Shown here one piece after another: positions 43,473-46,395 of a stretch of 64,000 bases of DNA (the stretch's first letter is position 1; every line of letters begins with the position of its first letter). The notes under the pieces are model-generated. The model was not told where the DNA came from, did no database searches, and worked only from the letters and a program-made list of their open reading frames with translations. Source of the DNA: Novosphingobium sp. TH158 (lineage in GTDB: Bacteria > Pseudomonadota > Alphaproteobacteria > Sphingomonadales > Sphingomonadaceae); NCBI RefSeq assembly GCF_002855555.1, contig NZ_PKRT01000001.1, positions 868,001-932,000 of the forward strand. The letters are read 5' to 3'. A program made the position numbers and the translations under genes.

Positions 43473-44672
43473 CTAGCTCAGCCGGTCGCGGAAGGTTTCC
43501 CAGCCGAAGCGCTTGATGCATTCGAGCTGGTCGGTTTCGCTGTCCCACAGCCAGATCGATGGCAGTGGCACGCCGTTGAAGGTCGTGGTCTTGACCATCG
43601 AATAGTGCGCCTGGTCAAGGAAGGCGAAGCGCGCGCCCGGCTCGCACGGCACGGGCAGGCGATAGTCGCCGATTACGTCACCGGCGAGGCAGGATGGACC
43701 GCCAAGGCGCACGGCCCCGCCCTGCCCCTCATCGACGATCTCCTCGTCGAGCGGCAGTTCGCCAAGCATGGCCGGGCGATAGGGCGCCTCGATCACGTCG
43801 GGCATGTGGCAGGTGGCGGAAATGTCGGTCACGGCCACGGGCATGCCGTTGAACTGGGTGTCGAGCACTTCGCCAACGAGGATCCCGGCATCGAGCGCCA
43901 CCGCCTCGCCGGGCTCGATATAGACCTGCGCCCCGGTATCCTCGGCCATGTCCCTGAGGAAATCCACCAGCTCGTCGCGCTGGTAATCGGCGCGGGTGAT
44001 ATGATGCCCGCCGCCAAGGTTGATCCACGAAAACTCGCCGAAATGCGGCTCGAGGAAATCGAAGACCTTGTCCCAGGTGCGGGCAAGCGGTTCGAAATCC
44101 TGCTCGCACAGGGTGTGCATGTGCAGGCCGTCGATCATCGCGACATGCTCTGCCGTCAACTGGTCGATGGGAAAGCCAAGGCGCGAATGCGGAGCGCAGG
44201 GATCATAGCGCGGCACCTCGCCCTCGGGATGCAGGGGGTTGATCCGCAGGCCGATGTCGAAATGCTGACCCGCCGCCCGTGCCGCCTCGATGATCGGCTG
44301 GAAGCGCTCGATCTGGTTGGGCGAATTGAAGATCACGTGGTCCGAATGGCGCAGGATCTCGGGAAGGTCCTCGGCCTTGTAGGCGGCGCAATAGGTCGCA
44401 ATCTCGCCATCGTAGAATTCGGAGGCGAGCCGGGCTTCCCACAGGCCCGACGTGCAGACGCCATCAAGGTATTCGCCCACGATCGGCGCGACCGACCACA
44501 TCGAAAAGGCCTTGAGCGCAGCCAGCACCTTCGCGCCGGACCGCTCGCCGATATCGGCCAGCACGCGCAGGTTCTCACGCAGCTTCGCGGCGTCCACCAC
44601 GAAAGCGGGGCTGTCGACGCGATTGAGGTCGAAGTGGGCAAAGGCACCCGGATCGCCTGCTCTGGTTTCCAT
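43473..44672 (-). CDS. nspC: Carboxynorspermidine/carboxyspermidine decarboxylase
   Basis: 399 residues. The PLP Lys is in VLAALKAFSMW near residue 53; GLHMHTLCEQD, INLGGGHHIT and YIEPGEAVALDAG follow, as in NspC. GGPSCLAGDVIGDY carries the catalytic Cys. It decarboxylates carboxy(nor)spermidine to (nor)spermidine. The dehydrogenase that makes its substrate is upstream at 45184, but a GxxExxY cassette has inserted between them. Confidence 0.94.
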   Translation of the reverse strand: METRAGDPGAFAHFDLNRVDSPAFVVDAAKLRENLRVLADIGERSGAKVLAALKAFSMWSVAPIVGEYLDGVCTSGLWEARLASEFYDGEIATYCAAYKAEDLPEILRHSDHVIFNSPNQIERFQPIIEAARAAGQHFDIGLRINPLHPEGEVPRYDPCAPHSRLGFPIDQLTAEHVAMIDGLHMHTLCEQDFEPLARTWDKVFDFLEPHFGEFSWINLGGGHHITRADYQRDELVDFLRDMAEDTGAQVYIEPGEAVALDAGILVGEVLDTQFNGMPVAVTDISATCHMPDVIEAPYRPAMLGELPLDEEIVDEGQGGAVRLGGPSCLAGDVIGDYRLPVPCEPGARFAFLDQAHYSMVKTTTFNGVPLPSIWLWDSETDQLECIKRFGWETFRDRLS

Positions 44673-44689: not shown

Positions 44690-45165
44690 TTCACGCAGAG
44701 GCGCAGAGGAAGAAAGGGAGGCGCGGAGGAGTCATTCGGGTTTGTAATCATTCACGATTCTTCGAATGCAGTCTTTCATCGTCTCTTCGGAAAAATTGAG
44801 GAGCAGCCCTACAGACTGTTTCAGCAATCTGAGATAGGTTAACACCTGCTTGGCATGGGCCTTGGCTAACCGTTCGACCGCCTTGACCTCAATCACGAGC
44901 CGTTCCTCTACGAGGATGTCTACCTTGAACGCCGGATCGTAAGTCTCGCCGTCGAAGACGGCCTTCACTTGAACCTGCCGCTCAACCTTCAGGCCCCGCT
45001 TCCTCAAGCGCCCAGCAAGTACCGACTCGTAAACAGATTCGAACAATCCAGGTCCTAATTCCCTGTGAATCGAGATGGCCTCAGCAATGGCCGCGGCGCT
45101 GAGTTCATCAATAGCAAGCACAGCCCCTCTGCGCCTCCCTTTCTTCCTCTGCGCCTCTGCGTGAA
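44690..45165. mobile_element. GxxExxY cassette with 35-bp terminal inverted repeats
   Basis: The left arm (44690-44724) and right arm (45131-45165) are perfect 35-bp inverted copies beginning TTCACGCAGAGGCGCAGAGG; similarity continues 5 bases further with one mismatch. They enclose a single GxxExxY gene. No transposase and no clear target duplication are present. The cassette sits between two genes of the polyamine operon. Repeats of this type are often seen flanking GxxExxY genes, so it is likely a non-autonomous mobile unit. Confidence 0.65.
44732..45121 (-). CDS. GxxExxY protein
   Basis: 129 residues from the GTG at 45121, which lies at the inner edge of the right terminal repeat. The name-giving motif is GLFESVY near residue 27. 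AEAISIHRELGPG and DILVEERLVIEVKAVERL with the ending QVLTYLRLLKQSVGLLLNF match the family, which has a nuclease-like (PD-(D/E)xK) look: D-I-L-V and E-V-K. Function is unknown. Frames further upstream read through the repeat and are not used as start. Confidence 0.85.
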   Translation of the reverse strand: MLAIDELSAAAIAEAISIHRELGPGLFESVYESVLAGRLRKRGLKVERQVQVKAVFDGETYDPAFKVDILVEERLVIEVKAVERLAKAHAKQVLTYLRLLKQSVGLLLNFSEETMKDCIRRIVNDYKPE

Positions 45166-45183: not shown

Positions 45184-46395
45184 TCAGAACTCCACCGGCC
45201 CCGGCAGTTCCTTGACCTGCCACGGCAGGCCATGCTTGTTGAGCATGTCCATGAACGGATCGGGGTCCATCTGCTCCATGTTGAACACGCCCTCGCCCTG
45301 CCACGCACCGGTCAGCATCATGGCCGCGCCGATCATGGCGGGGACGCCGGTGGTGTAGGAGATCGCCTGGTTGCCGGTTTCGGCATAGGCGTCCTCATGG
45401 TCGCAGATGTTGTAGATGTAGAAGGTCTTTTCGCCCGACCCGTCGAGCGCCTCGCCGGTGGCGATGTCGCCGATGTTGGTCTTGCCCTTGGTCGTCGGGC
45501 CGAGCGTTTCGGGCTTCGGCAGCACGGCGGCGAGGAATTGCAGCGGCACGATCTGCTGGCCCTGGAACTCGATCGGCTCGATGCCGATCATGCCCACGTT
45601 CTTCAGCACGGTCAGGTGGTTGATATAGGCATCGCCGAAGGTCATCCAGAAACGCGCGCGTTCCAGTTCGGGCAGGAACTTCGCGAGGCTTTCCAGCTCT
45701 TCGTGGTACATCATGTACATGTTCTTCGGGCCGACCGCGTCGAAATCGAAGGCCACCTTCTTCGACAGCGGCGGGGTTTCGACGAACTGGCCGTTTTCCC
45801 AGTGGCGGGCATTGGCGGTGACTTCGCGGATGTTGATTTCCGGGTTGAAGTTCGTCGCAAAGGCCTGCCCGTGATCGCCGCCGTTGCAATCGAGGATGTC
45901 GAGCTGGCGGATGGTCTTCAGCTTGTGCTTCTTGAGCCACATGGCGAAGACGCTGGTGACGCCCGGATCGAAGCCCGATCCCAGCAGCGCCATGATGCCG
46001 CGCTCCTTGAAGCGGTCATGCAGGTCCCACTGCCACTTGTATTCGAACTTGGCGACGTCCTTGGGCTCGTAGTTCGCGGTGTCGAGGTAATCGACGCCGG
46101 CGTTCAGGCAGGCCTCCATGATGGTGAGGTCCTGGTAAGGCAGCGCAAGGTTGACCACCAGCTTCGGCCGGATCTGTTCGATCAGCGCGGTGAGCGCGGG
46201 CACATCTTCGGCATCGATGGCATAGGTGGCCACGTCCACGCCGCAGCGCGCCTTTACCGATTCGGCAATGGCGTCGCACTTGGCAAGCGTGCGGCTGGCG
46301 AGGTGGATCTCGCTGAAAATGTCCGGGTTGAAGGCCATCTTGTGCACACAGACCGAGCTGACGCCGCCTGCGCCGATCACCAGAACCTTGCTCAA
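45184..46395 (-). CDS. Carboxynorspermidine/carboxyspermidine dehydrogenase (saccharopine dehydrogenase family)
   Basis: 403 residues from a TTG at 46395 with AGGAG 8 bp upstream. The Rossmann loop GAGGVSSVCV is at residues 8-17; NYEPKDVAKFEYKWQW and LLGSGFDPGVTSVFA are typical of this branch. It condenses aspartate semialdehyde with putrescine (or diaminopropane), using NADPH. With nspC and ornithine decarboxylase it gives a full carboxyspermidine route. Confidence 0.93.
   Translation of the reverse strand: MSKVLVIGAGGVSSVCVHKMAFNPDIFSEIHLASRTLAKCDAIAESVKARCGVDVATYAIDAEDVPALTALIEQIRPKLVVNLALPYQDLTIMEACLNAGVDYLDTANYEPKDVAKFEYKWQWDLHDRFKERGIMALLGSGFDPGVTSVFAMWLKKHKLKTIRQLDILDCNGGDHGQAFATNFNPEINIREVTANARHWENGQFVETPPLSKKVAFDFDAVGPKNMYMMYHEELESLAKFLPELERARFWMTFGDAYINHLTVLKNVGMIGIEPIEFQGQQIVPLQFLAAVLPKPETLGPTTKGKTNIGDIATGEALDGSGEKTFYIYNICDHEDAYAETGNQAISYTTGVPAMIGAAMMLTGAWQGEGVFNMEQMDPDPFMDMLNKHGLPWQVKELPGPVEF

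Follow-up and report, generated by a model that had tools for sequence, protein, structure and literature searches.

A GxxExxY nuclease gene between matched inverted repeats, with gene-less satellites: a possible RAYT/REPIN-like system in bacteria

Among described bacterial systems, the anatomy closest to that of the locus reported here is found in the RAYT (TnpAREP) genes and their repeats. A RAYT is a single-copy gene framed by repeats, and a GTAG-type head is a hallmark of REP repeats. The GxxExxY gene is likewise framed by inverted repeats, with doublets of the same type elsewhere in the genome, which makes it a system that works like RAYT/REPIN rather than a member of it. In PMC3116915, the RAYT gene is placed near inverted short repeats, with gene-less, hairpin-forming doublets scattered in the same genome, and the GTAG head of REP is named in PMC3733652. 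However, RAYTs are tyrosine (HUH-type) transposases, whereas GxxExxY has a PD-(D/E)XK fold: it matches PF13366 only, its best fold matches are PD-(D/E)XK nucleases, and nothing in these matches indicates an HUH/Y1 tyrosine transposase. The repeat sequence is also unlike that of REP, with no GTAG head visible by eye in the arms described below. Since the enzyme is a PD-(D/E)XK protein and not a tyrosine transposase, the GxxExxY cassette is not a RAYT/REPIN element.

Three further comparisons are relevant. MITEs of classical insertion sequences resemble the gene-less elements reported here in being short, intergenic and bounded by inverted ends, but the full-length GxxExxY member carries no transposase gene, and no target duplication was seen among relatives that are too diverged to reveal one. 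The protein family itself (TIGR04256/PF13366), of which our gene is a clear member, has an entry that names the protein only, and the passing mentions of it in the portions of papers available to us are silent on the ends. Among the open-licence PubMed Central papers listed, some of them judged by title and opening of the abstract, none described GxxExxY ends or GxxExxY mobility, nor did the passages of PMC12085832 and PMC8934634 give any account of them. Finally, GxxExxY shares its fold and active-site layout (E, D, ExK, QxxxY) with the Cas4/Hjc/RecB-type nucleases; unlike Cas4, it has no invariant cysteine (45 proteins) that could correspond to the [4Fe-4S] cysteines, and the gene studied here is flanked by polyamine genes rather than by Cas genes in a CRISPR context.

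The cassette and its nuclease-fold protein

The window, that is, the whole 64-kb stretch of DNA analysed, holds a cassette with terminal inverted repeats between two polyamine genes. The arm on the 3' side of the GxxExxY gene (44690..44729, plus strand; TTCACGCAGAGGCGCAGAGGAAGAAAGGGAGGCGCGGAGG) is composed of CRCRRAGR-like units and matches the arm on the 5' side (45126..45165, minus strand) at 39 of 40 bases, the outermost 35 of 35 being equal. A repeat search extended the imperfect match to 54 nt at 89%, and the motif CRCRRAGRCRCRRAG, at 0 mismatches, occurs in the whole window at these two arms only. The single ORF between the arms encodes GxxExxY (44732..45121, minus strand, in the direction of the operon; 129 aa, GTG start); the original prediction of a cassette with its own 35-bp inverted ends and one such gene inside was exact to the base. 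By eye, the inner end of the 5' arm (45122..45132, minus strand) provides an AGAGGGG before the GTG and may serve as the ribosome-binding site. The flanking genes, both on the minus strand and both assigned by profile match, resemble carboxynorspermidine decarboxylase (nspC; 43473..44672) and carboxynorspermidine dehydrogenase/synthase (45184..46395). Their scores, 374.6 bits against the nspC profile (cut-off 409.05) and 399.5 bits against the carboxynorspermidine synthase profile (equivalog cut-off 800), fall below the equivalog cut-offs, and therefore we treat both as homologues and not as certified equivalogs.

The ORF scored 127.3 bits against TIGR04256 (cut-off 35) and 127.2 bits against PF13366, the sole Pfam match of the product at E<=0.001; a family-library scan of that product alone gave no transposase match. 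Its AlphaFold2 model is confident (pLDDT 90.8), and among solved structures its fold comes closest to that of Cas4 (4ic1; Foldseek E 4.7e-4, Z 9.3), with Hjc (1gef; Z 7.1) scoring lower; the match to 4ic1 by sequence is weak (E 0.43). Six residues (E36, D76, E86, K88, Q100 and Y104, numbered as in the window row) are invariant in the 45-protein alignment and form the E, D, ExK, QxxxY layout; together with PF13366, the model and the fold matches, they identify a PD-(D/E)XK fold with a D, ExK active site. The earlier suggestion that the cassette, for want of a transposase, moves in trans if at all is unneeded, because the enclosed gene itself encodes a nuclease and is the best candidate for the mover. 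To judge from a dN/dS of 0.044-0.048 (three computable pairs, with synonymous sites saturated or nearly so), GxxExxY is under strong purifying selection.

We also considered a phage or defence origin for the gene and rejected it: no match was found in 50,697 phage records, only 5 occurrences were on viral contigs, and the only PADLOC hits were weak profile similarities, to Cas4 and to a nuclease of the RT-associated kind.

The polyamine and fab sites

We looked for the dehydrogenase-like protein of the window in 99 family genomes and found a match, in some cases weak, in 57; the polyamine site was compared in 30 loci, the window's own among them. The dehydrogenase and decarboxylase genes overlap at a TGATG in 6 of these loci and are separated by 13-81 bp in 3; a further 3 (the window, G065 and G033) have a GxxExxY cassette, and the remaining 18 show a gap of at least 369 bp with other sequence or a decarboxylase gene out of reach. 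The intact overlap confirms that the cassette separates a gene pair and supplies the empty sites for which a search in relatives had been suggested, with other DNA occupying the spot elsewhere. Based on these varied occupants, the spot between the two genes is a general insertion hot spot, of which the cassette is one occupant of several.

In the loci L015-L043, the gap is filled by many unlike sequences in different genera, and some of the contents resemble, by eye, a macro-domain gene and an acetyltransferase gene.

In a collection scan of 80 loci, the GxxExxY genes closest to that of the window (L061, L062 and L063) lie at the same polyamine site, and another (L082) adjoins the same dehydrogenase gene. 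When 98 GxxExxY proteins are placed in a tree, all seven rows from the polyamine site fall into a single clade (support 100/97). In the dehydrogenase tree, the window groups with L061 and L062, and G065, G033 and L063 fall in another clade within which the empty G039 and G047 are nested. Since the site is common to one seven-member clade, the cassette there is old and site-stable rather than recent. The pattern of carriers and empty sites could have arisen through loss, through replacement with an empty allele or through separate gain.

A recent insertion at the polyamine site, one of the two options (recent or conserved) first drawn from the identical ends, is discarded, given the seven-member clade and the two carrier clades of the dehydrogenase tree.

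A second site shows comparable stability. In 16 further loci and one Sphingomonas replicon, GxxExxY lies beside fabG, with fabD on the opposite side in all of them except L072, and the fab rows need one change in the tree of 98 proteins. Cassettes at both the polyamine and the fab site are thus old and site-stable. At the same time, the third-position composition of the gene differs from that of its surroundings: GC3 of GxxExxY is 0.58-0.72 at the polyamine site (near 0.62 in the window) vs. 0.77-0.89 for the neighbours, and at the fab site it lies below the values of both neighbours in 15 of 15 loci. Differences at 4-fold sites at the polyamine site are about twice those of the neighbours (0.56-0.72 vs. 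0.30-0.39). Codon usage unlike that of the neighbours could reflect exchange in place or weak codon bias.

At the fabD-fabG site (L064-L081, L217), the GxxExxY frame runs through the 3' arm in several species, in which the tail of the protein (e.g., SAPPRLCVNQ) is the translated arm.

Inverted ends, matched arms and gene-less satellites

Arms frame most members of the family. With one script at fixed settings and an inverted-repeat score of at least 14 as the threshold, inverted ends were found at 85 of the 117 non-viral GxxExxY loci, which span many phyla (3 of 120 loci, at contig edges, were left out), compared to 3 of 866 size-matched control intervals drawn from GxxExxY loci and 52 of 726 mis-paired flanks. 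Split by set, such ends were present at 14 of 16 family loci, at 54 of 78 loci from the collection scan, at 14 of 20 from a second, f21-rich set, and at 3 of 3 others; the remaining 32 of the 117 loci had no arms at this threshold. The expectation that GxxExxY genes commonly have such ends therefore holds. Arm types vary by lineage (e.g., CGCAGAGG, CACGAAGA, CACGAAT and CACGGA), both arms of one cassette matching each other, so that the same gene is framed across phyla by arms of many different sequences. The window arm, searched as arm sequence alone, had no match in an E. coli collection of 5,426 genomes.

The two arms of a cassette evolve in step. Among 17 fab-site cassettes, arm-to-arm identity within an element (0.941) exceeds the between-species identity of the same arm (0.815), and none of 10000 permutations reached the observed co-variation. 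Changes shared by both arms numbered 38 cells, vs. 22 unmatched. At the polyamine site, the corresponding two-arm permutation gave a weaker result (88 of 10000) and covered 5 of the 7 cassettes, the window's own and that of L051 being left out because the script had truncated their 5' arm. Higher identity within an element than between species is the opposite of what independent decay would produce, which implies that pairing is selected or that the arms are repeatedly equalised. The identical arms of the window cassette are better explained by continued matching over time than by young age.

Gene and repeats also co-occur across genomes, with all p values nominal because the genomes are related. 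In the 99 family genomes, the arm motif was present in 11 of 15 gene-positive vs. 9 of 84 gene-negative genomes (p=1.2e-6), and counting only places outside the cassette left 10 of 15 vs. 9 of 84. For a longer motif in 200 genomes of the phylum, the counts were 20 of 32 vs. 13 of 168 (p=3e-11); within family f21 the difference was not significant (18 of 26 vs. 10 of 21, p=0.11), and outside it the longer motif was found in 2 of 6 gene-positive vs. 3 of 147 gene-negative genomes. When gene-positive genomes were reached through loci of many phyla, 39 of 49 had the longer motif as well; this set was chosen by hand from 80 loci once the arm table was known, and is thus not blind, and the genomes' own cassettes are counted. 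The reversed-pattern control of the motif search is not independent for GAG-type arms, since such arms can match the control too.

Satellites without a gene share genomes with the cassettes. The window genome (2.98 Mb) has GxxExxY in single copy and five gene-less elements with paired window-type arms, about 130-180 bp long. These five copies, and the presence of the cassette in only 3 of the 30 polyamine loci, are the reverse of the situation that would have told against the original prediction, namely, a cassette in all relatives and no copies elsewhere. A more extensive set was found in genome G066, which has two cassettes. The 26 loci examined in it include 17 paired elements, 16 of them without a gene (116-233 bp, with unlike interiors), so that the genome has at least 16 gene-less elements with the arms of cassette 2; the single paired element of the 17 that encloses a gene encloses GxxExxY. 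Presence is lineage-specific: an arm 14-mer has 40 exact copies in G066 vs. 0 in its congeners G099-G102, of which G099, G100 and G101 have no GxxExxY match and G102 has one GxxExxY gene with different arms. For cassette 1, G099 and G101 have an intact site, and G100 and G102 have other sequence there; for cassette 2, the site is intact in G099, G101 and G102 and diverged in G100. Should G066 prove to be the outgroup within its genus, the congeners may instead have lost the two cassettes.

Similarly, at one site of genus g161, for which the 17 of 30 loci with both flanks placeable were used, several species are empty, two genomes (G310 and G351) have a gene-less element, and two (G237 and G381) have the cassette; G301 has a GxxExxY sequence near the same site. 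Cassettes are thus present or absent at orthologous sites, as transposable elements are. No target-site duplication was visible in G066 vs. its congeners or in genus g161, where relatives are roughly 70-87% identical and too diverged for a duplication to be read. Some satellites contain, by eye, a concentric second arm pair (L146, L147, L152 and L155 in G066; L163 in G033), which looks as though one satellite had gone into the tip of another. In G054, and partly in G033, the gene-less elements examined have arm sequences unlike those of the genome's own cassette.

A proposed element system and its rivals

The gene, the ends and the satellites are associated, and a nuclease gene framed by inverted repeats, together with gene-less doublets, has the anatomy of RAYT/REPIN. 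By this analogy, we put forward a system of that type that is not homologous to it, and we consider it probable, though well short of certain, that a Cas4/RecB-fold nuclease here takes the place of the HUH transposase. Under this model, the window cassette would be resident and full-length and would belong to a bacterial family of miniature inverted-end elements, the full member consisting of one Cas4/RecB/Hjc-type PD-(D/E)XK nuclease gene (GxxExxY) between arms of CRCRRAGR-like units. We infer that the mover is GxxExxY itself: most likely, this nuclease recognises the arms (perhaps folded into a hairpin or cruciform), and its cut at the arms would allow arm-bounded units to be copied or moved into new intergenic places. 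The offspring would be mostly gene-less palindromic satellites of 100-250 bp, whereas full cassettes would settle at a few sites and then be inherited or exchanged in place. The wider guess of a general mobile family, undescribed as far as the literature searched, gains support from the ends, the satellites and the co-occurrence. Weighing against the model are the 32 loci of 117 that had no arms at the threshold, the repeats present in genomes that lack the gene (9 of 84 in the family, G094 among them), the non-significant co-occurrence within family f21, the age and stability of the cassettes at the polyamine and fab sites, the deviating arm sequences in G054 and partly G033, and the possible loss of the two G066 cassettes in its congeners.

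The best rival is a homing nuclease residing in satellites that something else spreads. That is, the satellites would have come first, distributed by another enzyme, and GxxExxY would have invaded them and would copy itself into gene-less copies by double-strand-break repair. This scheme accommodates the cassette, gene-less element and empty state at one g161 site as well as the foreign-looking codon usage of the gene at old sites (GC3 at both sites, 4-fold differences at the polyamine site); nevertheless, it requires a second, unseen enzyme to spread the satellites, and that the one gene enclosed among the 17 paired elements of G066 should be GxxExxY speaks against it, so that we regard it as unlikely. 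It is also rather improbable, in our view, that an ordinary transposase elsewhere in the genome moves cassettes and gene-less elements alike, with GxxExxY as passenger cargo, perhaps defensive. While the repeats found without GxxExxY in some genomes and the weak PADLOC resemblance to Cas4 and the RT-associated nuclease would fit a passenger, the finding of one gene inside arms of many different sequences across phyla, and the lack of phage signal in the phage records and viral contigs searched, would not.

Finally, GxxExxY could be a host gene passed on vertically, with flanking palindromes that act as regulatory hairpins (terminators or mRNA stabilisers) and scattered copies that are functional hairpins unrelated to them. 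The site-stable clades at two operons are consistent with such a gene, as are the strong folding of the window cassette as a single strand (z -8.75) and arms that keep pairing. However, 40 exact end copies in G066 vs. 0 in four congeners, the intact sites and the co-occurrence in trans would all be left unexplained, and no known RNA family matched in Rfam (8 loci), which makes this reading very doubtful.

We therefore favor the RAYT/REPIN-like system. In a bolder version, which we advance only tentatively, GxxExxY cassettes would be among the smallest autonomous bacterial mobile elements: a lone Cas4-fold nuclease of ~130 residues able to recognise the inverted ends of its own element and to spread palindromes without a gene, i.e., a non-homologous counterpart of RAYT/REPIN across many phyla. 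The satellites that lie in the middle of others would then point to hairpin tips as the targets. If so, a very common "unknown" protein family would gain a function and a large class of unexplained short bacterial repeats a source, a PD-(D/E)XK nuclease acting alone would represent a new way of moving DNA, and two anonymous annotations would become one testable system.

A few observations concern other repeats. At the same g161 site in other species, L244, L251, L242 and L252 have unrelated palindromes, of the GGGGTCAGTCCACGCTGGGACAGACCCC type and the GGGGTCAGATGAAGG..CATCTGACCCC type, which means that the site draws more than one repeat family. Genome G094 has several paired gene-less elements with CGCAGAGACGCGGAG arms (L157-L159) and no GxxExxY match in the genome; these elements are possibly leftovers of a lost GxxExxY gene. 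Many satellites (L010, L012, L013, L146, L152 and L154) contain an inner GCGGCGAAGCCGC-like hairpin, which may represent a separate small repeat family.
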